From NCBI GenBank assembly GCA_017854775.1, contig JAFMHC010000024.1, positions 1 to 33,535 of the forward strand: 33,535 nucleotides of DNA, given 5' to 3'. Source of the DNA: Gammaproteobacteria bacterium (GTDB lineage: Bacteria > Pseudomonadota > Gammaproteobacteria > Arenicellales > Arenicellaceae). Of the stretch, positions 12,809 through 26,271 are shown piece by piece. Position 1 is the first letter of the stretch; each line of letters begins with the position of its first letter. The notes under the pieces were generated by a model that ran no database searches, had not been told where the DNA came from, and was given only the letters and a program-made list of their open reading frames with translations. Made by a program: the position numbers and the translations under genes.

Positions 12809-14572
12809 CTATGAAAAATAAGCGAACCCATATGGTTCTAAACTGATACTAAGGCCTTCGGTCGTGGTATCTAATGTCACGCCTAAGCCCTGCAGGGGGA
12901 TTGGTGTATTAATCACTGGAGCGGCAAAGGTAACGGGCTCAGCGCTGAGGTTGAAGCAAGCAGTTATGTGTTCGCCATGATGACTTCGATGGATGATTAA
13001 AACTTGTTCGGGTGAATCGAGAAATTCAATTGCGCCTTCGATGAGCACGCGTTGAGTCGTACGCCAGCGTAAAAACTGTTTATAAAAATTTAGCACCGAA
13101 TCATTGTCTTCGACCTGTGCAGCGACATTATGGCGACGATGTTCGTCGGCCACGGGTAGCCAGCTATCATGACTTGAAAAACCGGCATGGGGCTGGTCAT
13201 CGTTCCAAGCTATTGGCGTGCGGCAACCGTCACGACCTTTAAATTCTGGCCAGAATTCAATGCCAAAAGGGTCTTGTAGCTGGTGTTGTTGAATATTCGC
13301 TTCAGTGAAACCAAGCTCTTCACCTTGATAGACACATAGGGTGCCACGCAGCGAGGCGGCAAGCGCTAACGCCATTTTAGCAAACTGCGTGTTGTGTATG
13401 CCATCGCCCCACCGACTGACGACTCGAATTACGTCATGATTACTTACCGCCCAACAAGGCCAGCCTTCACCGATAACAGACTCAAGTGAGTTGACCGTTT
13501 TACGAACATGTTCGGCTGAGAACTCGTCAGCCAATAACTCAAAGTTGTAGCCCATGTGCAGTCGTTGATCACCTTGAGTGTATTCAGATAAAGTCTTTAG
13601 CGAATCTTCTGAATTGATCTCACCGAGCGCGACGGTTCCAGGGTAATTATCTAATAAGCTACGTACCTCTTCGAGAAAGCCCAAGTTTTCGTCTTGAGTA
13701 TTATCGAAATAATGATATTGAGCGGCATATGGGTTTTCCGGCGAAAAGCCTCGGCCGGTGCGTTCTTCAAGCGGTTTGAATGGGTTATCGCGTAGCAACT
13801 TGTCGTGATAACAAAAGTTGATTGCATCAAGTCGAAAACCATCAACTCCTCGTTTCAGCCAAAATTCTATTTCTTCAAGAATCTGTGCACGAAGCTCATC
13901 GCAATGAAAATTCAGATCTGGTTGAGAGGATAAAAAATTATGCAGATAGTATTGACCGCGTTTTTCGTCCCACTGCCAGGCACTACCACCAAAGATCGCT
14001 ATCCAATTATTTGGCGCAGAGCCATCCGGTTTTGCATCGGCCCAAACGTACCAATCAGACTTATCATTGGTTTTTGATTTTCGGCTTGTTTTAAACCATT
14101 GGTGCTGATCAGAGGTGTGGCTTAATACTTGATCAATCATTATCTTGATGCCACGTATCTTCGCCTGAGCGACTAATTCGTCGAAGTCGCTTAGTGTTCC
14201 AAAGATAGGGTCGACGTCTCGGTAGTCGCTGATATCGTAACCAAAGTCGTTCATCGGCGATTTGAAAAACGGCGAAACCCACAGAGCGTCGACGCCTAGG
14301 TCGCTGATGTAATCGAGCTTACTGATCACTCCTTGCAAGTCACCGATGCCATCCTCGTTGGTATCGCAGAAGCTACGAGGATAAACTTGGTAAATCACCG
14401 CACCACGCCACCAATCGAGTGAGTGGTCTGAGTCGTGTTGGCCGTCGTCTTTAGCTTGTACTAGCTTGAGTTTTAAATTTGTCGCTTGAGTCACTTCTGA
14501 TTCACTACTTAATATTAGATCGTTGATATGACCAAATGGCGCGAAACTATGTTTACCAACTATGTTTATCAT
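12809..14572 (-). CDS. GH13 alpha-glucosidase (oligo-alpha-glucosidase type)
   Basis: A 587-residue glycoside hydrolase of family GH13 (counting from ATG 14572). WWRGAVIYQVYPRSF begins the TIM barrel; catalytic Asp249 (GFRLDAIN), acid/base Glu318 (ALGEIN) and transition-state Asp380 (SNHDV) are present, with GDLQGVISKLDYI and QVLSHTSDQH. The pattern resembles the GH13_23 alpha-glucosidases, which release glucose from maltose and short maltodextrins or isomaltose. No signal peptide is visible, so it should be cytoplasmic. About 50 residues precede the usual N-terminus; they contain no clear domain and no obvious Shine-Dalgarno precedes the start, so translation could begin further in (a GTG codon exists near residue 27). 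It is divergent from the exported GH13 gene at 14970 across a gap holding two TACGTA operators. Confidence 0.9.
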   Translation of the reverse strand: MINIVGKHSFAPFGHINDLILSSESEVTQATNLKLKLVQAKDDGQHDSDHSLDWWRGAVIYQVYPRSFCDTNEDGIGDLQGVISKLDYISDLGVDALWVSPFFKSPMNDFGYDISDYRDVDPIFGTLSDFDELVAQAKIRGIKIMIDQVLSHTSDQHQWFKTSRKSKTNDKSDWYVWADAKPDGSAPNNWIAIFGGSAWQWDEKRGQYYLHNFLSSQPDLNFHCDELRAQILEEIEFWLKRGVDGFRLDAINFCYHDKLLRDNPFKPLEERTGRGFSPENPYAAQYHYFDNTQDENLGFLEEVRSLLDNYPGTVALGEINSEDSLKTLSEYTQGDQRLHMGYNFELLADEFSAEHVRKTVNSLESVIGEGWPCWAVSNHDVIRVVSRWGDGIHNTQFAKMALALAASLRGTLCVYQGEELGFTEANIQQHQLQDPFGIEFWPEFKGRDGCRTPIAWNDDQPHAGFSSHDSWLPVADEHRRHNVAAQVEDNDSVLNFYKQFLRWRTTQRVLIEGAIEFLDSPEQVLIIHRSHHGEHITACFNLSAEPVTFAAPVINTPIPLQGLGVTLDTTTEGLSISLEPYGFAYFS

Positions 14573-14744
14573 GGTTACCAACTTTGGCTACCATAGTGTG
14601 TCTTACAACATACTAATAGTTTTTGCTTAGAATCGCTGCTATGCACTTTACCTCAATGCATTATTGCCATTTGGGCGGAACTGCTATCACGGTTACCTGA
14701 CAATCTTAAAGTGAGTCGATGTAAATTTGCAGTCACTCGAGCTA

Positions 14745-14758
14745 TGAATACGTATGCA
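14745..14758. promoter_or_regulatory. TACGTA operator 1 (distal, exported GH13 promoter)
   Basis: TGAATACGTATGCA, with the palindromic core ATACGTAT typical of LacI-family operators with a central CG. The likely binder is the LacI-type regulator at 24969-26015 (inference). Confidence 0.65.
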
Positions 14759-14775
14759 CAGGTGCGCGAGCGGTA

Positions 14776-14789
14776 TGAATACGTATGTA
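14776..14789. promoter_or_regulatory. TACGTA operator 2 (proximal, exported GH13 promoter)
   Basis: TGAATACGTATGTA, 31 bp (about three helical turns) from operator 1. It ends 29 bases before a -10-like TACGAT (14819-14824) embedded in GGGCTTGAAATACGATG, which recurs almost exactly before the receptor gene. Confidence 0.68.
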
Positions 14790-14969
14790 GTTGCTAACGT
14801 CGTCGATCGGGCTTGAAATACGATGAGTGACACGGCTAGCCAGACAATTACTTACACAGTAATTTATAAGTTGCTAGGCCGTTGATGGTATCGATTAAGG
14901 TGATTTTTATGCGCATTACTTTTATGTGCTCTACTTTTTATACGCACTACTTAAGGTTAGATTTTTATT

Positions 14970-16859
14970 ATGTTCAAGTACTTCAAAGTGGCGGTTTTTC
15001 TACTTACGATTTTACTCAGCGTTGTCTCCGTTCAGTCCGCTTATGCGAATCTGTCTGTGGACAGAGTCGAGCCACCATTTTGGTGGTCGAATATGGCGCA
15101 GTCTAATTTGCAATTGATGGTTTACGGTCAAGGTTTGTCCGATGTTCAAGTTGAGTCATCGACACAGATGGTGACGGTGCGAAAAGTAACCGCTGCGGAA
15201 AACCCGAATTATGTCTTTGTCGATCTAGAGATATCCAGTCAATTTAAGGCTGACTTAATCGAGCTGACCTTTATCGGGCAGAGCGGTCGGTCACAGGTCT
15301 ATCCCTACCAGATCAAACCGCGCGAGGCAGGCTCACGCCAACGCGTAGGTTTTTCGTCTAAAGACGTTATTTACTTGGTCACCCCTGATCGCTTCGCCAA
15401 CGGTGATATATCAAACGACAACGTAGATGGCCTAACAGAGCTAAGCGACCGCAGTAAACCGGGTGGGCGCCATGGTGGTGATTTGGCTGGGCTGTCGGAT
15501 AATCTCGAGTATTTGGCAGAACTAGGAATTACCAAGGTTTGGTTGAATCCATTGCAACAAAATAACGAGCCACAATATTCATACCACGGATACTCGATTA
15601 GTGATCTTTATCAGATCGATGCGCGTTATGGTGGTAATCAGGCATTGATTGAGTTTTCACAGCAAGCGCAGGATCTCGGGATTGGTTTAATCATGGACAC
15701 GATTCCGAATCATATTGGTGTCAACCATTGGTGGATGAACGATTTACCAAGCTCTGACTGGATCAATAATGATGGCAAGTTTAGTCAAACATCGCATAGT
15801 CATGAGGCTATTCAAGACCCGTACAGTTCTGAGCAAGACCGTGTTGAGTTTAATGACGGTTGGTTTGTGCCGACCATGCCGGATCTAAACCAGCGCAATC
15901 CTTATTTAGCTAATTACTTAATTCAAAATAATATCTGGTGGATAGAGTTTGCTGGCTTAGTCGGCTTGCGGGTTGATACCTTGCCCTATGCTGATAAGCA
16001 TTTCACCACTGAATTTAATGCTCGTATCTTGGCCGAATACCCAAACCTTAATATTGTCGGTGAGGAGTGGACAACCAATCCCGCCGTAGTTTCATACTGG
16101 CAAAGCGGTAAGTTGAACCAAGACGGTTATGACGGTGGAGTGCCAAGTTTAATGGATTTTCCGCTACAAGAGGCCTTAGTCCTTGCATTAACTGAGCCGG
16201 AGAATAAACAAGATCGTAACGGTTTACGGCGCTTGCACACGCTCCTCGCCAATGATTTTCAATACCCGGATGCCAATAATTTAGTTGTGATTGGCGACAA
16301 TCATGATATGAGCCGTTTGCACACGCAGCTGAATGATGATGCGGCGCTAACCAAAATGGCACTCACCTTTTTGATGACTACTCGGGGTATCCCTCAATTG
16401 TTTTACGGTACCGAAATTTTGATGAGCAACACGGGGACAGAAGACCACGGCATTATTCGATCTGATTTCCCTGGCGGCTGGAGTGGTGATAAAAGTAATG
16501 CTAAGACAGGCGAGGGTCTGTCGGTCGACGCATTAGAAATGCAGGCTTACCTGCGAACACTATTAAATTGGCGCAAGGCTGCCCCTGCGATCCACCATGG
16601 CAAACTAATGCACTATCTACCCAAGGATGGCGTCTATACTTTTTTCCGCTATCTAGACGATGTTGGGGGGGCAGGCGATAGCGTGGTAATGGTGATTATG
16701 AATAATAATCAGTCGGCCGTGAGCCTCGATTTGTCACGCTTTGCCGAGCGCATCAAGGGTAAGCAAACAATGCTGAATGTGATTACTAAAGAATCGTCGT
16801 CGATCTCGAAACCCTTGTCGTTACCGGCTAAGTCAGCGCAAGTATTCGAATTAAACTAG
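14970..16859 (+). CDS. Exported GH13 cyclomaltodextrinase / neopullulanase-like enzyme
   Basis: A 629-residue enzyme with a signal peptide (about 1-27, ending SAYAN), so periplasmic or outer-membrane facing. An N-terminal beta domain of the cyclomaltodextrinase type (about 28-118, VDRVEPPFWWSNM) precedes the GH13 barrel: VIYLVTPDRFANGD, GGRHGGDLAGL, IMDTIPNHIGVNH, nucleophile Asp336 (GLRVDTLPY), acid/base Glu365 (NIVGEEWTT) and Asp446 (GDNHDMSR); a C-terminal beta domain follows. The pattern matches cyclodextrin- and maltodextrin-degrading enzymes of SusA type. Likely role: cut imported maltodextrins or cyclodextrins in the periplasm. Two TACGTA operators lie upstream, and the halogenase gene begins 61 bases downstream, probably in the same transcript. 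Confidence 0.92.
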   Translation: MFKYFKVAVFLLTILLSVVSVQSAYANLSVDRVEPPFWWSNMAQSNLQLMVYGQGLSDVQVESSTQMVTVRKVTAAENPNYVFVDLEISSQFKADLIELTFIGQSGRSQVYPYQIKPREAGSRQRVGFSSKDVIYLVTPDRFANGDISNDNVDGLTELSDRSKPGGRHGGDLAGLSDNLEYLAELGITKVWLNPLQQNNEPQYSYHGYSISDLYQIDARYGGNQALIEFSQQAQDLGIGLIMDTIPNHIGVNHWWMNDLPSSDWINNDGKFSQTSHSHEAIQDPYSSEQDRVEFNDGWFVPTMPDLNQRNPYLANYLIQNNIWWIEFAGLVGLRVDTLPYADKHFTTEFNARILAEYPNLNIVGEEWTTNPAVVSYWQSGKLNQDGYDGGVPSLMDFPLQEALVLALTEPENKQDRNGLRRLHTLLANDFQYPDANNLVVIGDNHDMSRLHTQLNDDAALTKMALTFLMTTRGIPQLFYGTEILMSNTGTEDHGIIRSDFPGGWSGDKSNAKTGEGLSVDALEMQAYLRTLLNWRKAAPAIHHGKLMHYLPKDGVYTFFRYLDDVGGAGDSVVMVIMNNNQSAVSLDLSRFAERIKGKQTMLNVITKESSSISKPLSLPAKSAQVFELN

Positions 16860-16920
16860 AATACCCTGATTCTGGTGGGTGGTTATGTAGGATACCGAGG
16901 TAGTAAAAACTGAAATAGGC

Positions 16921-18492
16921 ATGGCTAGTAATTATAAAATACTCATTCTTGGCGGTGGCACAGCGGGTTGGATGGCGGCAAATTTATTCGCTAAGAACTG
17001 CGCTGGGACAATGGTCAATGGCCGACGCATTGAGATAAATGTGGTCGAATCAGCCGAGATCGGCATAGTCGGTGTCGGCGAGGGATCAACACCTCAACTC
17101 AAGGCGCTGTTCGATCACTTAGAGATTGCTGAGTCAGACTGGATGCCGAAATGCAACGCAACGTATAAAAACGGAATAAGCTTTAAAGGCTGGTCTGGAA
17201 AAAAGGGCTTTGAAGAATATTTTCATCCGTTTCCAGCCAAGACCGATCGTGATACCGCGCAAGCGTTTGTTTACAATAGCTACCTTCGTCGACACAACAT
17301 TGATGTTGAGGTGCAGCCGAATAAATTTTTCTTGCCGGCCTATTTAGCCGCCTCAAAGCTTGGTCCTAAGCCTGATCGAAATTTTCCGTTTGCAGTGAGT
17401 TATGGATATCACTTCGATGCCTACCTTGTTGGAGAAGTGCTCAAAGAAAACGCGATCAAGTTAGGTGTGCGTCACATTCAAGCAACCATTGATGACGTTA
17501 TCGTTGACCCGACTGGCAACATCCAAAGCCTAAAGAGTAGCGATGGGCAGCAGCATCAAGCTGATTTTTTTGTCGACTGTTCAGGCTTTGCTGGCCTGTT
17601 AATTGGTAAGGCATTGAAGGTGCCGTTTAACAGTTTTGCCGAAAACCTATTTAATGATTCGGCGGTAGTTATGCCAACTGGCGATAGAGTTATGCCAACT
17701 GGCGATAGAGTTATGCCAACTGGAGATAGTCAGCAGGTGGCATCACAAACGACCGCAGTGGCAATGAATGCCGGCTGGGTTTGGAACATTCCGCTTACCA
17801 ATCGCACTGGAAACGGCTACGTCTACAGTAGCGGTCATATCGATTCAGATGCGGCCGAAACCGAGCTGCGGGCTAGTCTCGGGCTGCTAGATTCCGAGGT
17901 GCAAGCACGGCATTTGAAAATGAGAGTTGGTCAGCGACAGCAGCATTGGGCTGGCAATTGTCTCGCGGTTGGTCTGTCTCAGGGCTTTATCGAGCCGCTT
18001 GAAGCAACCGCGCTGCACCTCGCACAAGACACTATTCAAGGATTCATTAGCCTGTTTAATGCTGGCAAGCTCTCCGATTCAGATAAAGCCGAGTTTAATC
18101 AGTCAATCAGCGCAAAATTCGAGGGTATTCGCGATTACATCGTCTGTCACTACAAGGTTAATTCTAGAGCTGATCGCGTAAACGCAGGCCAGCACTACTG
18201 GCGTGACTGTGCTAACAACAATACCCTATCGCCGTCGTTGCAATCGTTGCTTAACGTCTGGAATGCAGGTGAAGATATATCACTTGAAATCGAGCGCCAA
18301 GGAATAGGGCGCTATTACCCGGTGATCTCATGGCATTGTTTGTTGTCTGGTTATGGTGTTTTTCCAAGCACTGAACGATTAATAAGTGATGACAGTCGTT
18401 CGCAAAGGTTTAACATGGCTGAGGTGGTTGAGTTCAATCGCTGTTGCGCTTTGAATTTCAAGCCTCACCATCAGCAGCTCAGCCATTTATAA
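16921..18492 (+). CDS. FAD-dependent tryptophan-halogenase-family protein 1
   Basis: A 523-residue flavoprotein of the tryptophan-halogenase family (PF04820 type). FAD-binding GGGTAGWMAA lies at 11-20, the family motif W-x-W-x-I-P is GWVWNIP (about 284-290), and Lys83 in TYKNGI aligns with the active-site lysine of PrnA/RebH. The active-site glutamate is present (GFIEPLEATA, Glu360) but the serine usually next to it is Ala361. No signal peptide, so cytoplasmic. Residues 249-269 are three copies of VMPTGD(R/S), an in-frame 21-bp triplication. Homologues beside TonB-dependent receptors are common in marine bacteria and Xanthomonas, and some halogenate indole-like compounds; the job inside a maltodextrin locus is unknown. 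It probably shares the transcript of the GH13 gene ending at 16859. Confidence 0.88.
   Translation: MASNYKILILGGGTAGWMAANLFAKNCAGTMVNGRRIEINVVESAEIGIVGVGEGSTPQLKALFDHLEIAESDWMPKCNATYKNGISFKGWSGKKGFEEYFHPFPAKTDRDTAQAFVYNSYLRRHNIDVEVQPNKFFLPAYLAASKLGPKPDRNFPFAVSYGYHFDAYLVGEVLKENAIKLGVRHIQATIDDVIVDPTGNIQSLKSSDGQQHQADFFVDCSGFAGLLIGKALKVPFNSFAENLFNDSAVVMPTGDRVMPTGDRVMPTGDSQQVASQTTAVAMNAGWVWNIPLTNRTGNGYVYSSGHIDSDAAETELRASLGLLDSEVQARHLKMRVGQRQQHWAGNCLAVGLSQGFIEPLEATALHLAQDTIQGFISLFNAGKLSDSDKAEFNQSISAKFEGIRDYIVCHYKVNSRADRVNAGQHYWRDCANNNTLSPSLQSLLNVWNAGEDISLEIERQGIGRYYPVISWHCLLSGYGVFPSTERLISDDSRSQRFNMAEVVEFNRCCALNFKPHHQQLSHL
17668..17730. repeat. 21-bp tandem triplication inside halogenase gene 1
   Basis: Three adjacent 21-bp units at 17668-17688, 17689-17709 and 17710-17730, each starting GTTATGCCAACTGG. 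The first two are identical; the third differs at two bases. Each encodes VMPTGD plus Arg or Ser and keeps the frame. Confidence 0.97.
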
Positions 18493-18522
18493 CGCTGGTA
18501 GCCCAGTTTTATAAGTGTTTCA

Positions 18523-18542
18523 TGCGCCATTACGCAGGCGCA
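18523..18542 (+). terminator. Hairpin after halogenase gene 1
   Basis: TGCGCC pairs with GGCGCA around an eight-base loop, 31 bases past the stop codon. No T-run follows, so it may be only a partial terminator before the receptor promoter. Confidence 0.35.
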
Positions 18543-18595
18543 CTAAAGCTAACTCTCTACGTTCAGTTACATCTTAAAGTTATGTTAGTTATGAA

Positions 18596-18609
18596 TGAAT
18601 ACGTATGTA
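18596..18609. promoter_or_regulatory. TACGTA operator 3 (distal, receptor promoter)
   Basis: TGAATACGTATGTA, identical to operator 2, 119 bases upstream of the receptor ATG. Confidence 0.65.
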
Positions 18610-18627
18610 ATAAGAATGCAGTGCTTT

Positions 18628-18641
18628 TGAATACGTATGCA
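18628..18641. promoter_or_regulatory. TACGTA operator 4 (proximal, receptor promoter)
   Basis: TGAATACGTATGCA, identical to operator 1, 32 bp from operator 3. It ends 28 bases before a -10-like TACCAT (18670-18675) within GGGCTTCAAATACCATG. Confidence 0.68.
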
Positions 18642-18714
18642 CCTTATATCCACCCAATAGGGCTTCAAATACCATGTACTTGACAAGAATACCTAATTAA
18701 ATACGAGGAGAAGC

Positions 18715-21501
18715 ATGAGACAGTCAAAATTTAATCGCGCCACACAGAAGCGCGTAGTAAGACCTCTATCAGAAAACACCATGGCTTTTAGAAAAACCGT
18801 CCTTTCCACTTGCGTCGCTGCGGCTATCGCTAGTACAGCAGCGCCGACTTACGCACAAGTCGACGATGTGGTTTTAGAAGAAGTTGTGGTGACGGCTACT
18901 GGTTACCGTAAGTCGATCATCGACTCAATTGATGCAAAACGCTATTCGTCATCGGTAGTTGAGTCCATCTCGGCCGAAGATATTGGTAAATTACCTGATT
19001 CAAGCATCGCCGACTCGATTGCTCGTTTGCCTGGCTTGGCGGCGCAGCGCTTAGACGGTCGTGCTAGCTCAATTTCAGTCCGAGGCTTCAACGAAGACTT
19101 CTCAACGACAACCTTCAATGGCCGCGAGCAAGTATCTATCGACGATAACCGTGGTGTTCAGTTCGACGTCTACCCATCAGAAATCATGTCCGGTGTCACG
19201 GTTTATAAAACGCCAAATGCATCGATTGTTAATCAGGGGATTGCTGGCACGATTGACCTACAGACGGTTCGCCCGTTAGATATCGACGAGCGTGTTCTGC
19301 AATTGAATGTATCGGTTGAGCAAAACGATCTAAGTAAGTTGAATGCCGATGGCGAAGACACCGGCTATCGTGGCACACTCTCCTTTGTCGACAAATTTGC
19401 TGACGACACTATAGGTGTTGCACTGGCAATCGCGACACTAGAGTCGCCGAATCAAGAAGAGCGTTGGAATGCATGGGGTTATGCAGGCGACGGCCAAGGC
19501 AATAGTGTTTTAGGTGGAGCAAAGCCATTTGTTCGTTCCTCGAACTTGCAACGTGACACGGTGATGGCGGTAGTGGAATACGCTCCGAACGATCGTCTAG
19601 TTTTGACCGCTGACGCATTGCATATCGACTTCCTGGATGAAAAAATTCTGCGAGGCATTGAAATTCCGGGCGCCTTTGGCGGCGGCTTCGGTGTCTCGAC
19701 TGACATAGCTACGGCGGCTGATGGCTTCGTAACCAGCGGCACGTTTAATAATGTACAAGGTGTTATTCGTAACGACTTTGAGCAGCGTGATGCGAAGTTA
19801 ACTAACTTTGGACTAAATCTTCAATACGCAATCAATGACACGGTGACTCTAGAATTAGACGCCAGTTCATCAAAAGCGGATCGTACAGTAAACAGTTTAG
19901 AAAGCTACTCGGGTACTGGACGAGGTACTGGCGTAGGTGCATCGGATAATATTGGTTTCTCTCAAGATGGCGACCAGTTCGGAGTGAATTTTGATTCGAA
20001 CTTGAACTACGCTGACCCAAATCTAATTCAATTAGGTGGCCCACTAAGTTGGGGTAACGGTTCAACGGTTGCGTCAAACGGACAAGATGGTTTCATTAAT
20101 ATTCCTGAAATCGACGATGAGCTAAGTGCTTTCAAGGCGGTGGTTAGCAAGAACTTTGACCAAGGCTTATTTACCAATGTGTCGGCAGGCGTTAATTACG
20201 CTGATCGAACTAAGTCGAAGCAAGACAATGGTTTCTTCTTAACATTGAAGGAATTCCCTGACCGCATTGGTGTTCCTGACGAGTTTCGTGTAGCAGATAC
20301 CTCGCTTGACTTCTTAGGCTTAGGTAGCATCCAGTCATACGATTCTTTTGCACTTCTGAATTCTGGTGCTTACATACTAACCGATGAAAACCAAACCAGT
20401 AATAATCGTGCGATTAACACCTGGAGTGTGACCGAAAAAATAACCACCGTATTTGTAAAAGGTGATTTCGAAACTGAACTGGGTGGCAAATTAGTGACTG
20501 GTAATGTTGGCGTTCAATACGTAGATACCGACCAAAGCTCAATCGGCAATGCGGTCACCAACGTCGATGGTTTTGTCAATGCTCAACGAGTTAATGGCGG
20601 TGCTAGTTTTAGCGATGTGTTACCAAGCCTGAACCTATCTATTGGCTTGACCGACAATCAGAAGCTCCGCTTTGGTCTAGCTCGAACATTGTCACGTTCG
20701 CGCATGGATCGAATGAATGCGGGCTTTGGCTTTACCTTCGACGCGGTCGCAAACGCGGTAGGCGCGCCTCCCTTTGGTGCAACCGGTGGTAACCCAGAAC
20801 TCCGCCCGAATGAAGCTGATCAGGTCGATTTTAGCTATGAGTATTACTTCAGTGACGACGGTTACATATCTGCCGCCTATTTCTACAAAGACCTACGCAC
20901 ATGGCAAGAACAAGTTATCACGCCAGGTGATTTTACCGGGGTGCAAGCGCCTGGCTTCACCGGCACGGTTAACTCAACACAAGGTTTCTTAACCGCGTGG
21001 ACTGACACCACTACCGGTAGTATCGACGGCTTTGAATTAACCGGAGTGCTGCCAGGTCGGTTAATCTCACCAGTGCTAGATGGTTTTGGCATTAGTGTTA
21101 GCGGCTCTTTCTTGGACAGTAGCTTAGATTCAGCCTCAGATAACAGTCCGATTGTAGTTCCAGGTTTGTCGGAACAAATTGTTAACGCAACGGTTTTCTA
21201 TGAAAAATCTGGCTTTCAAGCACGGGTAAGTGTTCGTGATCGTGACGATTTCTTAGGCGAGCGTTTCGGCACCTCGTTTACTCGAAATTTCACCACTGTT
21301 ATCGGCGCAACCCTCTGGGATGCTCAAGTAAGTTATGACTTTGGCGAAGCAGGTTTTGAAAGCTTGGATGGTTTAGCGGTTAGTTTTCAAGCTCAAAACT
21401 TGTCTGACGAACCCTACATCACGGTTGACGGCAGCGGCAATGTTCAAGACTTTCAACGTTTTGGCAGAACCTTCTTGTTGAACGCTCGCTATAAGTTCTA
21501 A
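18715..21501 (+). CDS. TonB-dependent outer-membrane receptor, maltodextrin type
   Basis: A 928-residue TonB-dependent transporter that should import an oligosaccharide across the outer membrane using TonB energy. A signal peptide ends near residue 48 (APTYAQ); the TonB box is EEVVVTATG (55-63); the plug domain follows (about 75-185, with DIGKLPDSSIADSIARLPG and SVRGFNED); the rest is a beta-barrel ending in a C-terminal Phe (LNARYKF). GAGGAG before ATG 18715 supports this start over the in-frame ATG at 18781; it gives a signal peptide with an extended basic N-region. The two TACGTA operators and the GH13 and permease neighbours argue for maltodextrins or cyclodextrins as cargo (inference). 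No SusD-like partner is present. Confidence 0.93.
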   Translation: MRQSKFNRATQKRVVRPLSENTMAFRKTVLSTCVAAAIASTAAPTYAQVDDVVLEEVVVTATGYRKSIIDSIDAKRYSSSVVESISAEDIGKLPDSSIADSIARLPGLAAQRLDGRASSISVRGFNEDFSTTTFNGREQVSIDDNRGVQFDVYPSEIMSGVTVYKTPNASIVNQGIAGTIDLQTVRPLDIDERVLQLNVSVEQNDLSKLNADGEDTGYRGTLSFVDKFADDTIGVALAIATLESPNQEERWNAWGYAGDGQGNSVLGGAKPFVRSSNLQRDTVMAVVEYAPNDRLVLTADALHIDFLDEKILRGIEIPGAFGGGFGVSTDIATAADGFVTSGTFNNVQGVIRNDFEQRDAKLTNFGLNLQYAINDTVTLELDASSSKADRTVNSLESYSGTGRGTGVGASDNIGFSQDGDQFGVNFDSNLNYADPNLIQLGGPLSWGNGSTVASNGQDGFINIPEIDDELSAFKAVVSKNFDQGLFTNVSAGVNYADRTKSKQDNGFFLTLKEFPDRIGVPDEFRVADTSLDFLGLGSIQSYDSFALLNSGAYILTDENQTSNNRAINTWSVTEKITTVFVKGDFETELGGKLVTGNVGVQYVDTDQSSIGNAVTNVDGFVNAQRVNGGASFSDVLPSLNLSIGLTDNQKLRFGLARTLSRSRMDRMNAGFGFTFDAVANAVGAPPFGATGGNPELRPNEADQVDFSYEYYFSDDGYISAAYFYKDLRTWQEQVITPGDFTGVQAPGFTGTVNSTQGFLTAWTDTTTGSIDGFELTGVLPGRLISPVLDGFGISVSGSFLDSSLDSASDNSPIVVPGLSEQIVNATVFYEKSGFQARVSVRDRDDFLGERFGTSFTRNFTTVIGATLWDAQVSYDFGEAGFESLDGLAVSFQAQNLSDEPYITVDGSGNVQDFQRFGRTFLLNARYKF

Positions 21502-21537
21502 GTCTTTACTAAGGTATCTACTTAGTTAAGTAGAATG

Positions 21538-21573
21538 AAAAGCCCCTGTAAGCTATGTTTGCAGGGGCTTTTT
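21538..21573 (+). terminator. Intrinsic terminator after the receptor gene
   Basis: AAAAGCCCCTG pairs with CAGGGGCTTTT around a 13-base loop (extendable by inner pairs), followed by another T. It lies 37 bases past the stop and 50 bases before halogenase gene 2, which therefore depends on read-through or its own promoter. Confidence 0.9.
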
Positions 21574-21623
21574 AGTGTCTAAATTAGCGCCTAAATTTTG
21601 AGTATTTTATTCCACAGCCAATA

Positions 21624-23123
21624 ATGAACAATACGATCAAACGAATAGCCATTGTAGGCGGCGGTACAGCCGGTTGGATTGCCGCTGCGTTACTTGTACG
21701 CCTGCTGGGTAAAAACCTAGAAATAACACTTATTGAATCAGAGGCAATCGGTACAGTCGGCGTTGGTGAGGCGACCATTCCGCCAATCCAAGCTCTAAAT
21801 CAAGCGCTTGGTATAGACGAAGCCGATTTTATCCGACAAACCAACGCCACGATCAAGTTAGGCATCCAGTTTGAAAATTGGAACCGAGCCGGCGACTCGT
21901 ATATGCACGCCTTTGGCGACATCGGCAAGGGCCTCGCCTTGTGTGGGTTTGAGCAATTATGGTTACGTGGCCTAGAGACCGGAGTCAGTACCGATTTCTG
22001 GGACTATTCGCTAAACTACCAAGCGGCTAAGCAGGGTCGCTTTGCCAAATTTGATAGCATCCCCAATACCGGTATGAATGGCCTCGTCTATGCATATCAT
22101 TTTGACGCCGGTCTTTACGCCAATTATTTACGGCGCTATAGCGAGCAAGCAGGGGTAAAGCGCGTTGAAGGCTTAATTGACGCGGTCAACTTAAGCCCGC
22201 ACGATGGAGCGATCGAGACCCTAGCCCTGCAAGATAAGAGCTTGATATCAGCCGACTTATTCATTGATTGCTCTGGTTTCAGAGGCTTGCTAATTAATCA
22301 AGCATTAGGCGTAAAGTATCAAGATTGGTCTCACTGGCTGCCTGCTGATAGTGCGGTAGCGGTGCAATCTGAATCGGTTAACCCAGCAGTGCCTTATACT
22401 CGATCGATTGCGCACGAGGCTGGCTGGCAATGGCAAATACCGTTGCAGAATCGGGTTGGCAATGGGCTTGTGTTTAGTAGTCAGTACATGACTGATCAAA
22501 CCGCCACCGAGCTACTATTGCAGAACATTGACGGAGCAGTTCGAACGGGCCCACGGGTGATCAAATTTAAAACAGGGCGACGTGAAAAAGCGTGGCACAA
22601 AAACTGTATTTCGCTCGGCCTAGCGTCTGGTTTTTTAGAGCCACTTGAATCGACCAGCATTCATATGGTCCAAACTGCGGTTACTCGACTGATAAAAATG
22701 TTTCCACATAAGGGCATTAAGGTGGCCGAGATTGATGAGTACAATCGTCAGACTAAAGATGAGATGGAGCATATTAGAGACTTCATTATCTTGCACTATG
22801 CCGCCAATCAACGACCAGAGCCTTTTTGGAGAGCGTGCTCCGAGATGCCAATACCTGAGTCGTTGTCGAACAAGATCAGTCTTTTCAAACAGGCGGGCAA
22901 AACTGCCAACGTTAGCGACGCATTGTTTAGCGATGTGGCCTGGCAACAAGTGATGATTGGCCAAGGTTTAGTGCCTGAGGATTATCACCCGCTAGCCAAT
23001 TCGATTAGCCTGACACAACTGTCTGAGTTTCATGGCAACATTAAAACGGTTATCAATCAGGTAGTCAGTAAGTTGCCGACGCATCAGTCTTTTATTGATT
23101 CGCTTGCTGCTAAGGAGGATTAG
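21624..23123 (+). CDS. FAD-dependent tryptophan-halogenase-family protein 2
   Basis: A 499-residue member of the same family as the protein at 16921 but clearly diverged from it. It has the full set of halogenase marks: GGGTAGWIAAA (12-22), GVGEATIPP, active-site Lys78 in NATIKLG, the W-x-W-x-I-P motif GWQWQIP (267-273), and Glu342-Ser343 in GFLEPLESTS. It therefore looks catalytically competent. No signal peptide; it would be cytoplasmic and needs reduced FAD, but no flavin reductase gene is in view. It follows the receptor terminator and has no clear Shine-Dalgarno, so expression may be low or depend on read-through. The substrate cannot be predicted. Confidence 0.9.
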   Translation: MNNTIKRIAIVGGGTAGWIAAALLVRLLGKNLEITLIESEAIGTVGVGEATIPPIQALNQALGIDEADFIRQTNATIKLGIQFENWNRAGDSYMHAFGDIGKGLALCGFEQLWLRGLETGVSTDFWDYSLNYQAAKQGRFAKFDSIPNTGMNGLVYAYHFDAGLYANYLRRYSEQAGVKRVEGLIDAVNLSPHDGAIETLALQDKSLISADLFIDCSGFRGLLINQALGVKYQDWSHWLPADSAVAVQSESVNPAVPYTRSIAHEAGWQWQIPLQNRVGNGLVFSSQYMTDQTATELLLQNIDGAVRTGPRVIKFKTGRREKAWHKNCISLGLASGFLEPLESTSIHMVQTAVTRLIKMFPHKGIKVAEIDEYNRQTKDEMEHIRDFIILHYAANQRPEPFWRACSEMPIPESLSNKISLFKQAGKTANVSDALFSDVAWQQVMIGQGLVPEDYHPLANSISLTQLSEFHGNIKTVINQVVSKLPTHQSFIDSLAAKED

Positions 23124-23140
23124 CTGGTTTGCTAATGGCA

Positions 23141-23154
23141 TGAATACGTATGTA
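23141..23154. promoter_or_regulatory. TACGTA operator 5 (permease promoter)
   Basis: TGAATACGTATGTA, identical to operators 2 and 3, here a single copy just after halogenase gene 2. It ends 29 bases before the -10-like TATACT at 23184-23189. Confidence 0.68.
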
Positions 23155-23159
23155 GCTCG

Positions 23160-23189
23160 TTGTGTGTACCTTTTGCCAAGCAATATACT
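23160..23189 (+). promoter_or_regulatory. Promoter-like pair for the sugar permease
   Basis: TTGTGT (23160-23165), 18-bp spacer, TATACT (23184-23189). The operator sits directly upstream of the -35 rather than over the promoter. Confidence 0.5.
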
Positions 23190-23244: not shown

Positions 23245-24759
23245 ATGGGTTCAACATTGCGTCAAAAACCGGAGCTAAATTTTTGGCAAATCTGGAACAT
23301 GTGCTTCGGCTTTCTTGGCATTCAATTCGGCTTTGCCCTACAGAATTCAAACGTCAGCCGCATCTTTCAGACGCTCGGCGCCGACATGGCAATGATTCCA
23401 ATGTTGTTTATAGCGGCGCCATTAACGGGTTTGATCGTGCAGCCTTTGATTGGTCATTTTAGTGACAGAACCTGGACCAAGATGGGTCGTCGTCGGCCCT
23501 ACTTCTTTTGGGGGGCAATATTAACCACCGCGTCACTGGTCTTTATGCCAAGCTCGCCAACCCTGTGGGTGGCGGCGATAATGCTCTGGGTAATGGATGC
23601 CAGTATCAATCTGACGATGGAGCCGTTTAGAGCTTTCGTTGGCGACATGCTACCCAGTAAGCAACGGACTTTTGGTTACGTGATGCAAACCTTTTTTATC
23701 GGTGTTGGAGCCGTAGTCGCATCGATGTTGCCGTGGATCTTTACCAATTTTCTTGGTGTCGATAATACCGCCGCCGACGGCCTAATACCGGATTCAGTAC
23801 GGTATTCATTTTATCTCGGTGCCGCCGCTGTAGCGTTAACGGTCGGCTGGACGATTATCCGCACAAAGGAGTATAGCCCGCAGCAACTGGCCTCTTTTGA
23901 AGAGCCAGAAAATGCAAGTTTTGCCGCCGCAGAGCAAGCTGTGTTGGCTGGCCAGCCGGTTTTCTCCAGCACGTGGTCGATTATTTGGACTGCAGCGGGC
24001 TTGTTAGTAAGCCTCGCTATTTACCTTGGTGGCTGGGATTATCAGCTTTATATTCTTAGTGGTGGCGTGACGGTGGTTGGCTTATTACAGTTTTACGCCT
24101 CATCGAAAGAGAAGAGTGGTGATAAAAACACTTTCTATGAGGCATGTCGTAGCGTCGTATTGATGCCGAAAACCATGCGCCAGTTAGCAGTGGTGCAGTT
24201 CTTTTCGTGGTTTCCATTATTTGCTATGTGGATCTACACAACACCAGCAGTAACCAGTGTGCACTTCGCTAGCTCCGATGTAACCAGCGAGGCCTATAAT
24301 GAGGGTGCTAACTGGGTAGGGGTATTATTCGGCGCATACAATGGCTTTTCGATTATTGCCGCTTTACTGATCCCGATAGTAGTTCGACGTATTGGTCTGA
24401 AAGGAACCCACTCCATCAACCTTTTGATTGGCGCCGCAGGTTTAGCATCGATGATGGTATTTAAGGATCCGATGATGTTACTGCTGTCTATGCTTGGTGT
24501 TGGCTTTGCCTGGGCCTCGATTTTATCGGTACCCTACGCAGTACTTTCTGACTCGGTGCCGTCGGAAAACATGGGCCTTTATATGGGCGTGTTTAACTTT
24601 TTCATTGTCATACCGCAATTGGTAGCGGCCAGCTTACTTGGTTTAGCGTTGAAGTATTTGTTTGCTGGAGAAGCAATTTACATACTAGGCTTAGCCGCTG
24701 GTTTTTGGGTCTTAGCCGCGATTGTGATGATGTTTGTAAAGCATCAAACCGAGGTCTAA
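23245..24759 (+). CDS. GPH/SUT-like sugar permease (probable maltose or maltodextrin importer)
   Basis: A 504-residue, about 12-helix cytoplasmic-membrane transporter. The loop between helices 2 and 3, GHFSDRTWTKMGRRRPYFF, carries the R-x-G-R-R-R-P signature of the GPH/sucrose-permease-like group of the MFS superfamily, whose bacterial members carry sucrose, maltose or related disaccharides, usually with protons. AAGGAG precedes the ATG. The upstream TACGTA operator and the neighbouring alpha-glucosidases argue for maltose or short maltodextrins (inference). It is followed by a convergent LacI-type gene, with a minisatellite at the junction. Family is firm; substrate is moderately supported. 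Confidence 0.87.
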   Translation: MGSTLRQKPELNFWQIWNMCFGFLGIQFGFALQNSNVSRIFQTLGADMAMIPMLFIAAPLTGLIVQPLIGHFSDRTWTKMGRRRPYFFWGAILTTASLVFMPSSPTLWVAAIMLWVMDASINLTMEPFRAFVGDMLPSKQRTFGYVMQTFFIGVGAVVASMLPWIFTNFLGVDNTAADGLIPDSVRYSFYLGAAAVALTVGWTIIRTKEYSPQQLASFEEPENASFAAAEQAVLAGQPVFSSTWSIIWTAAGLLVSLAIYLGGWDYQLYILSGGVTVVGLLQFYASSKEKSGDKNTFYEACRSVVLMPKTMRQLAVVQFFSWFPLFAMWIYTTPAVTSVHFASSDVTSEAYNEGANWVGVLFGAYNGFSIIAALLIPIVVRRIGLKGTHSINLLIGAAGLASMMVFKDPMMLLLSMLGVGFAWASILSVPYAVLSDSVPSENMGLYMGVFNFFIVIPQLVAASLLGLALKYLFAGEAIYILGLAAGFWVLAAIVMMFVKHQTEV

Positions 24760-24847: not shown

Positions 24848-24987
24848 ATAAGAGTCTCAACCAGCGTCAGCGTTTATAAGAGTCTCAACCAGCGTCAGCG
24901 TTTATAAGAGTCTCAACCAGCGTTAGCGTTTATAAGAGTCTCAACCAGCGTCAGCGTCAAAAAGAGTCTCAACCAGCGTTAGTGCCA
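24848..24987. repeat. 28-bp minisatellite, five units, covering the lacI-type stop codon
   Basis: Units at 24848-24875, 24876-24903, 24904-24931, 24932-24959 and 24960-24987, sharing AAGAGTCTCAACCAGCGT. Units 1 and 2 are identical; unit 3 has one C-to-T change; units 4 and 5 diverge at their right ends. Unit 5 encodes the last residues and stop (24969-24971) of the regulator; units 1-4 repeat this end beyond the stop. It is not a CRISPR array because there are no spacers. Confidence 0.97.
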
Positions 24988-26015
24988 GCGCCACAAGAGT
25001 CGCGGACTATTAGCTTGGTTGGCAATAAAACCGACTGCACAGGTTCTTCGTTTATCGAGCGAATAACACTGTCAACCAATTCCTTTCCAGCCTCGAAAGT
25101 GTCTTGGCGGATTGTAGAGAGTGCCGGTGAAAGGTGTTCGGCGGTAGGGATATCATCAAAACCGACAATTGCTTTATCCAGTGGCACTCGAATACCTCGC
25201 TGGCGTAATGCTTTTATTGCGCCAATTGCAATCAGGTCACTGGCACAGAAAATACCTGAAAATTCTACGCCACTATCAAGTAATTCATTGGCCGCTTTGT
25301 AGCCGCTTTCTTCAGAGAAATTTGCCCGAAAGTGAAGTGGCTCTTGCACCTTAATTGAGTGTTTCTCATGAGCTCGTCGATAACCCGCGTAGCGGTCTCT
25401 GAGTTCTGGGTCGTCTTTTGATTCGTTACCTAAAAAGGCAATGTTTTTATGCCCGAGTGTTAGTAAGTGATCGGCCGCTAGAAACCCGCCTTGTTCGTTG
25501 TCGCAACCAACGAATAGCCCAGGTTGGTTTTCAATCACCGGCCCCCAGGTAACAAAATGAGCACCGGCTTCATCCAATTTCGAGATGCGCTTTATATAGC
25601 TAGTGTAATCGCCATAGCCTAAAAATATGATGCCGTCAGCTTTGTTAGCATCTTCATACTCGGCGTTCCAGTCATCACTCAATTGTTGAAATGAAATAAG
25701 CAGGTCATAACCTTGATTTGCGGTTGCGCGAGTGATGCTGCCAAGCATGGATAAAAAGAACGGGTTGATAAAAGCTTGGCTTTCACCAGATGACTCTTCA
25801 AATAAAAGCAGGGCAAGCGTGTTGGTCGTTTGCGAGCGCAAATTTCTGGCGTTCACATCAACTTTATAATTCAGTTCGCGAGCAATTTTTTGAACTCGCT
25901 GGCGTGTTTCCAAGCTGACTAAGGGGCTGTCGCGCAGCGCACGCGAGACAGTAGGTTGGGAAACCCCAGCCAAGTGTGCTATATCGACCGAGGTCGGTTT
26001 GTTCTTGCCTTTCAT
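24969..26015 (-). CDS. LacI-family transcriptional regulator of the maltodextrin genes
   Basis: A 348-residue LacI/GalR-type regulator: helix-turn-helix TSVDIAHLAGVSQPTVSRAL (8-27), hinge NARNLRSQTT (about 55-64) and a periplasmic-binding-protein-like effector domain (AFLGNES, IFCASDLIAIGAIKAL, VGFDDIP). AAGGG precedes the ATG. It is the only LacI-type gene in the window and lies in the sugar locus, so it is the natural candidate to bind the five TACGTA palindromes. The effector is probably maltose, a maltodextrin or glucose (inference). A HexR-like palindrome lies 15-29 bases upstream of its start. Its 3' end, encoding GTNAG and the stop, lies inside a 28-bp minisatellite. Confidence 0.92.
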   Translation of the reverse strand: MKGKNKPTSVDIAHLAGVSQPTVSRALRDSPLVSLETRQRVQKIARELNYKVDVNARNLRSQTTNTLALLLFEESSGESQAFINPFFLSMLGSITRATANQGYDLLISFQQLSDDWNAEYEDANKADGIIFLGYGDYTSYIKRISKLDEAGAHFVTWGPVIENQPGLFVGCDNEQGGFLAADHLLTLGHKNIAFLGNESKDDPELRDRYAGYRRAHEKHSIKVQEPLHFRANFSEESGYKAANELLDSGVEFSGIFCASDLIAIGAIKALRQRGIRVPLDKAIVGFDDIPTAEHLSPALSTIRQDTFEAGKELVDSVIRSINEEPVQSVLLPTKLIVRDSCGAGTNAG

Positions 26016-26029
26016 TTTTTTAGCCCTTA

Positions 26030-26044
26030 TGTAAATTTATTACA
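26030..26044. promoter_or_regulatory. HexR-like operator between lacI-type gene and gluP
   Basis: TGTAAATTTATTACA keeps both outer arms (TGTAA/TTACA) of the HexR consensus and differs in the A/T centre. It lies just upstream of the regulator start, where binding could block that gene, and 228 bases from gluP. Confidence 0.55.
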
Positions 26045-26079
26045 TTAACTGTTTTTAGTCACTTGTTTATTAGCTATCA

Positions 26080-26095
26080 TGTGACTATTCTCACT
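26080..26095. promoter_or_regulatory. CRP-like site upstream of gluP
   Basis: TGTGA-CTATTC-TCACT matches the CRP consensus TGTGA-N6-TCACA at nine of ten conserved positions. It lies in the divergent gap and could serve either gene. Confidence 0.5.
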
Positions 26096-26118
26096 TTTGG
26101 AGATGGCGTATTTAGTAC

Positions 26119-26134
26119 TTCAGCAATAGCTGAA
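26119..26134. promoter_or_regulatory. Small inverted repeat upstream of gluP
   Basis: TTCAGC-AATA-GCTGAA, a perfect 6-bp dyad. Function unknown; possibly an operator or leader hairpin. Confidence 0.25.
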
Positions 26135-26168
26135 TTATTACATAAACCAAACAAAGAGGAGCGGCTGA

Positions 26169-26198
26169 ATGTTACGAAGTTTGTATCCTGATGCCTAA
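26169..26198 (+). CDS. Possible nine-residue leader peptide upstream of gluP
   Basis: ATG at 26169 opens a nine-codon frame (MLRSLYPDA) ending in TAA, with AGAGGAG seven bases upstream, a better Shine-Dalgarno spacing than many genes here. It ends 73 bases before the gluP start. It could be a leader peptide or a chance match; no codon-repeat or paired hairpins typical of attenuation are evident. Confidence 0.25.
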   Translation: MLRSLYPDA

Positions 26199-26271
26199 GG
26201 AGAAGGCCGAGGCAGACTATTTATACTGCTCAGTGCTTTACTAAAAACTAATAAACATAAGAGATCAAATC

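Follow-up and report, generated by a model that had tools for sequence, protein, structure and literature searches.

The closest described counterpart of the system treated here is the MalR regulon of Shewanella (Rodionov et al. 2010, PMC2996990; this and the other papers are cited for the portions retrieved), in which sites for a LacI-type regulator, MalR, are predicted before operons for a TonB-dependent receptor, a permease and glycosidases. By that published description it is like a stretch of 33,535 nt from an Arenicellaceae genome (contig JAFMHC010000024.1, assembly GCA_017854775.1; hereafter the window), which carries what, judged by gene content, is a maltodextrin-use cluster, together with a gene for a LacI-family regulator, also called MalR here, and five copies of a 14-bp operator, TGAATACGTATGYA. 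MalR regulons and their sites are already known in Shewanella, where the retrieved portion of the paper states neither the distance from operator to promoter nor the mode of regulation; the new part is a fixed, activator-like geometry. The best reading of this geometry is that MalR is probably a maltose/maltodextrin-responsive activator of the LacI family.

Comparable clusters are found in the Caulobacter crescentus mal cluster and the Xanthomonas maltose CUT locus, which likewise bring together a TonB receptor, GH13-type enzymes, a sugar transporter and a regulator gene (PMC3917699, PMC1790865); the Xanthomonas paper lists the regulator as a repressor, unlike the mode proposed here. Activation by LacI-family proteins has been described for CcpA of Lactococcus lactis and Bacillus subtilis, which acts from upstream sites in a helix-face-dependent manner but, unlike MalR, is a global catabolite regulator (PMC2329647), and for MdxR of Enterococcus faecium, a positive regulator of maltodextrin genes, as proposed here for MalR, which differs in being Gram-positive and in controlling an ABC-transporter regulon (PMC3737153). 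A positive mode has also been inferred from site position for PckR, a precedent for such reasoning (PMC4052901). In the literature searched, with supplements and regulon databases outside its scope, the retrieved portions described neither activation by a gammaproteobacterial MalR nor a fixed distance between its operators and the -10. A literature search with the operator string matched only a 10-base core, in papers none of which was on this subject by title, and the terms maltose, amylase and LacI were not found in the retrieved portion of a primary-transcriptome paper on Alteromonas macleodii (PMC5864184).

Operators in the window

A preliminary description of the window had placed five near-identical operators before a GH13 gene, the receptor gene and the permease gene, at a fixed distance from -10-like hexamers. 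A window scan recovered all five as exact matches, with paired sites 31 and 32 bp apart and hexamers beginning 29, 28 and 29 bases past the proximal operators (Table 1). Counting the first base of each hexamer as -12 puts the operator centres upstream of the -35, at -48.5, -47.5 and -48.5, a position that recurs beyond the window. The further statement that there are no other copies stands for the window, which has no sixth exact copy, and fails for the genome, which has additional exact and one-mismatch copies. Scanning the window at 0–2 mismatches returned nothing extra besides two of the five sites seen on the opposite strand, and allowing three mismatches added two places (3061 and 20514). 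By simple base counting, an exact match is expected an estimated ~0.0005 times per 33.5 kb; at up to three mismatches, the window has 12 matches against a shuffle mean of 5.64, with 2 of 100 shuffles equally high.

Operator-to-hexamer spacing across lineages

Spacing was compared across 80 loci fetched by their permease, with operators accepted at ≥11/14 matching positions, and in Arenicella, with operators accepted at ≤2 mismatches. A downstream open frame of ≥200 or ≥150 codons was required, sites were grouped by orientation, and those ≥70% identical in sequence were collapsed, including two loci (L037 and L117) that are the same contig. Among 74 non-redundant, forward-facing proximal operators, 56 were followed by TAnnnT at a gap of 27–29 bases, with 8, 29 and 20 at gaps 27, 28 and 29 (one promoter counted twice) against ~2.05 expected per gap. 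By contrast, the hexamer appeared at these gaps in only 2/31 reverse-facing operators, 2/29 operators of other forms and 4/44 distal members of pairs. Arenicella, Xanthomonas, Colwellia, Woeseia, Paraglaciecola and others are represented, and 15 of 18 lineage labels contribute (Arenicella 22/29, Bowmanella 3/6; Alkalimonas, Arsukibacterium and Catenovulum 0/1 each). Given the inferred -10, the operator centre lies at ~-46.5 to -48.5 in the 56 promoters, upstream of the -35.

A smaller peak occurred one helical turn further out, at gaps 38 and 39 (7 and 5 of 74). Of these twelve, four are TGTAACAT in Bowmanella/Lacimicrobium permease promoters, which lack the 27–29 hexamer, and three have that hexamer as well. 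In a hand-picked Arenicella set of 47 promoters of likely sugar targets, 35 had TAnnnT at 27–29; gene labels in this set came from N-terminal letters and from scanning one or a few members against Pfam, and it omitted, among others, L124, L128, L130, L131, L136, L141, L154, L158, L162, L163 and the distal and reverse-facing sites.

A further sample was drawn class-wide from 369 genomes. Exact operator copies were present in 20, four of them Arenicella; the remaining 16 held 28 copies, all of which were analysed. The hexamer was found at 27–29 in 18/28, against 1.23 expected when each downstream 60-mer was shuffled, and no three-gap window away from this peak exceeded 3. None of the 28 downstream stretches was 70% identical to the first set (maximum 66%), although some came from the same wider lineages. 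A control with the PurR consensus matched in 0/369 genomes and hence gave no repressor-regulon comparison.

Mode of regulation

In the 56 aligned promoters, the hexamer matched TATAAT at ≥4/6 positions in 48, three matches being guaranteed by selection, whereas the best -35 match at a 16–18 bp spacing averaged 2.54/6, no better than in shuffled spacers (2.45 ± 0.12); position -35 was T in 64%. A second operator within 160 bp lay upstream in 28/74 cases and downstream in 0/74, with the first ~45 downstream bases excluded by construction. Paired sites were 29–33 bp apart in 35/41 cases (31 or 32 in 25) and 39 or 40 bp apart in the other six, of which five precede Colwellia-type malR genes; several of these loci are close relatives.

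A LacI-family dimer centred near -48 at promoters with a weak -35 would most simply be an activator. In such a scheme, the product of the adjacent malR gene would bind the 14-bp near-palindrome as a dimer, its ATGYA arm towards the promoter, and would contact RNA polymerase at sigma-70-type promoters whose -10 is usable but whose -35 is poor; maltose or a maltodextrin would be the presumed effector, and binding, start sites and activation are likewise inferred. Where sites are paired, about three helical turns apart (mostly 31–32 bp), a second dimer would sit on the same face near -79 and would probably bind cooperatively or strengthen activation. The 38/39 variant, seen at few promoters, and the three-turn pair spacing both fit a same-face requirement. 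A symmetric dimer would not be expected to bind a near-palindrome in one consistent orientation, which hints that the arm on the promoter side may be tuned for polymerase contact or for weaker binding. The preliminary description had called an activator position unusual for a LacI-type protein, which is fair, but CcpA (PMC2329647) and MdxR (PMC3737153) are precedents.

Several observations weigh against activation from a fixed site. The 27–29 hexamer is missed by 18/74 promoter-facing operators, TAnnnT is a loose proxy for a -10, and symmetric operators have the hexamer in only 3/12 cases; among these, Alishewanella/Arsukibacterium permease promoters look, by eye, like gap 25. In the hand-picked Arenicella set, promoters of the pullulanase type have TAnnnT at 27–29 in 3/9 cases and lack it in 6/9; at gap 24, seven carry GACAAT and two CACAAT, which is off the helical phase of the 27–29 and 38/39 peaks. 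VWA-side promoters of that set have the hexamer in 0/4. From the literature, the pneumococcal namesake, MalR of Streptococcus pneumoniae, is a repressor (PMC4451989), as is SuxR at a sugar locus with a TonB receptor in Xanthomonas (PMC1790865). Comparison with L. lactis CcpA is mixed: its operator centre lies -31 or -21 from the -35 where it activates and -9 or -4 where it represses (reference point unstated; PMC2329647). The main class here, ~-12 to -13 relative to the inferred start of the -35, falls between the activating -21 and the repressing -9 and nearer the latter; the 38/39 class would lie at ~-22 to -23 if the -35 keeps its place.

Two of these promoter types have features of their own. 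The pullulanase-type promoters (L029, L127, L132, L138, L143, L147, L151, L156 and L161; Pfam only for L029) have the operator reversed in 8/9 and contain an AT-rich stretch. At L126, L137, L144, L157 and L160, a 30-bp inverted operator pair stands beside a CBM20 alpha-amylase gene (Pfam for L126), with a VWA-domain protein on the other side in L126 and L160.

The principal competing explanation, which we consider rather unlikely, is that MalR is an ordinary repressor relieved by maltose, which would block polymerase recruitment from upstream of the -35 (through the alpha-CTD or -35 access) or would loop DNA between paired sites. LacI-family regulators are mostly repressors (PMC4451989), SuxR of Xanthomonas is one at a TonB-receptor locus (PMC1790865), and the operator centre is near a position from which CcpA represses (PMC2329647). 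The maltose induction of Xanthomonas XCC2469 fits either mode (PMC1790865), and in the 14/56 promoters with TTG five bases past the operator, the operator nearly abuts a -35. Against repression, the nearest operator ends at ~-41 by the inferred -10, clear of the core promoter and start that a classical repressor site overlaps, and second copies, where present, lie still further upstream, a bias that is partly by construction. The -35 elements are weak, and the distance is near-fixed across many genes and lineages.

On balance, we lean towards MalR being a true dedicated sugar activator of the LacI family across Gammaproteobacteria, with an operator that is oriented, not symmetric, and nearly fixed at -48, and with tandem copies separated by some three helical turns. 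If so, a widespread TonB regulon for starch and maltodextrin that is assumed to be repressed would in fact be activated, and it would offer a Gram-negative model for contact between a LacI-family dimer and RNA polymerase. Shared by lineages as far apart as Xanthomonas and Colwellia, the near-fixed, oriented upstream geometry predicts a regulatory sign opposite to the one usually assumed and provides exact promoters for testing.

MalR as the putative operator binder

The regulator in the window has the domains of a LacI-family protein (24969-26012; PF00356, 1.2e-14; PF13377, 1.1e-34). Counting MalR at ≥50% identity over ≥200 residues, operators were found in 49/50 of the fetched loci with MalR and in 8/30 of the others (Fisher p 4e-12, only nominal because related loci are not independent); the sole MalR locus lacking one is a 4.9-kb contig. 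In the further sample, MalR (53–55% identity) was present in 6/16 genomes, and the architecture was seen at 16/17 of their sites versus 2/11 in the ten genomes without it (Fisher p 7e-5). Among the nine sites of the latter genomes that do not fit, five fall within a frame of ≥150 codons, a flag that some fitting sites in G+C-rich genomes share. Among 21 family genomes, the window's own included, the eight with MalR at ≥72% identity each had 5–14 operator matches (≤1 mismatch), and the other 13 had 0–3, except G007 (8) and G009 (12).

This co-occurrence makes the LacI-type protein of the window the likely operator binder. It is very improbable that the 14-mers are bound by another regulator and that MalR is a bystander: operators do occur in the eight fetched loci where the stretch lacks MalR, and three Arenicella genomes (G007, G009 and G010) carry operators with no MalR ortholog above 37% identity found, which counts against our proposal, but these genomes are only 82–87% complete, and the association with MalR holds in both samples. 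A palindrome with a central CG, as in these 14-mers, is typical of LacI-family operators. We give almost no weight to chance or to the shared ancestry of duplicated promoters as the source of the fixed distance: GGGCTT(G/C)AAATAC(G/C)ATG, confirmed in the GH13 and receptor promoters of the window at 14809 and 18660, could mean a copied promoter, but the spacing persists after removal of sequences ≥70% identical, across different genes and lineages, and recurs in the 28 copies, none of which reaches 70% identity with the first set. As a general promoter part this motif was dropped, similar letters being visible by eye in only some Arenicella promoters.

Upstream of the window malR (26016-26271), the best operator-like match was 9/14. 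Colwellia-type malR genes (L045, L057, L059, L067 and L070) have their own upstream operator pair, 39 bp apart, which the window gene lacks. At three loci with MalR homologs of 37–39% identity (two Marinicaulis metagenome-assembled genomes, L071 and L080, and one alphaproteobacterial one, L076), such an operator was not found.

Maltose regulon and gene cluster

Scanning the genome for the motif, as the preliminary description had proposed, located exact copies outside the window at C98:1509 and C159:5604 and one-mismatch copies at C98:1478, C55:8191, C55:8223, C340:1738 and C367:20307. The last two were set aside since they overlap reading frames (C340 at the 3' end of a frame, C367 inside a 580-codon frame). 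Of the remaining copies, two are spaced 31 bp apart upstream of a CBM26/GSDH protein gene, two are 32 bp apart upstream of a CBM20 alpha-amylase gene, and one stands alone ahead of a pullulanase gene. At ≤1 mismatch on both strands, the genome has 13 matches, against 2 for a reversed control pattern. Regulator and operators occur together with a receptor, a permease and maltodextrin-active glycosidases, and by this predicted membership the five window sites are part of a larger maltose regulon.

The operators lie before the GH13, receptor and permease genes, as originally described; in addition, the pair at 14745/14776 stands between divergent genes, so that a second GH13 gene on the minus strand faces it too. 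TAAGAT or TAACAT at gap 36, as at the candidate -10 of that gene, is also present in four relatives (L117, L142, L129 and L146).

Table 1. Genes, operators and -10-like hexamers of the window (positions in nt).
Feature	Position	Strand	Remarks
GH13 gene (alpha-amylase catalytic domain)	12809..14581	-	divergent from operator pair; PF00128, 5.8e-129
Candidate -10, TAAGAT, of divergent GH13 gene	14703..14708	-	36 bases from reversed 14745 operator
Distal operator TGAATACGTATGCA, promoter of cyclomaltodextrinase-like GH13 gene	14745..14758	+	on minus strand, closest operator to divergent GH13 gene
Proximal operator TGAATACGTATGTA, GH13 promoter	14776..14789	+	centre ~-48.5
-10-like hexamer TACGAT, GH13 promoter	14819..14824	+	gap 29; position shared with relatives
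GH13 gene with cyclomaltodextrinase N and C domains	14970..16859	+	domain scan
Tryptophan-halogenase-like flavoprotein	16921..18492	+	domain scan
Distal operator, receptor promoter	18596..18609	+	exact 14-mer match
Proximal operator, receptor promoter	18628..18641	+	exact 14-mer match; centre ~-47.5
-10-like hexamer TACCAT, receptor promoter	18670..18675	+	gap 28
TonB-dependent receptor	18715..21501	+	TIGR01782
Second tryptophan-halogenase-like gene	21624..23123	+	domain scan
Single operator, permease promoter	23141..23154	+	exact 14-mer match; centre ~-48.5
-10-like hexamer TATACT, permease promoter	23184..23189	+	gap 29
MFS/GPH-type sugar permease, MalT-like by context	23245..24759	+	
LacI-family regulator (MalR), proposed binder	24969..26015	-	

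The cluster also holds a glucose/fucose-type MFS transporter and a glucokinase, followed by G6PDH, 6-phosphogluconolactonase-like and 6-phosphogluconate-dehydratase-like genes. The window is Arenicella-like: among the matches listed, the best for its permease is from an uncultured Arenicella (74%).

At L028 (1600-4461) and L153 (1147-4500), the protein preceded by operators combines three stretches of CBM26, a starch-binding module, with a glucose/sorbosone dehydrogenase domain, a fusion that points to a sugar oxidase bound to starch and belonging to this regulon. The two tryptophan-halogenase-like genes accompany the maltodextrin receptor in the window, and a gene of this kind in another Arenicella genome (L130, 1128-2636) has its own reversed operator.

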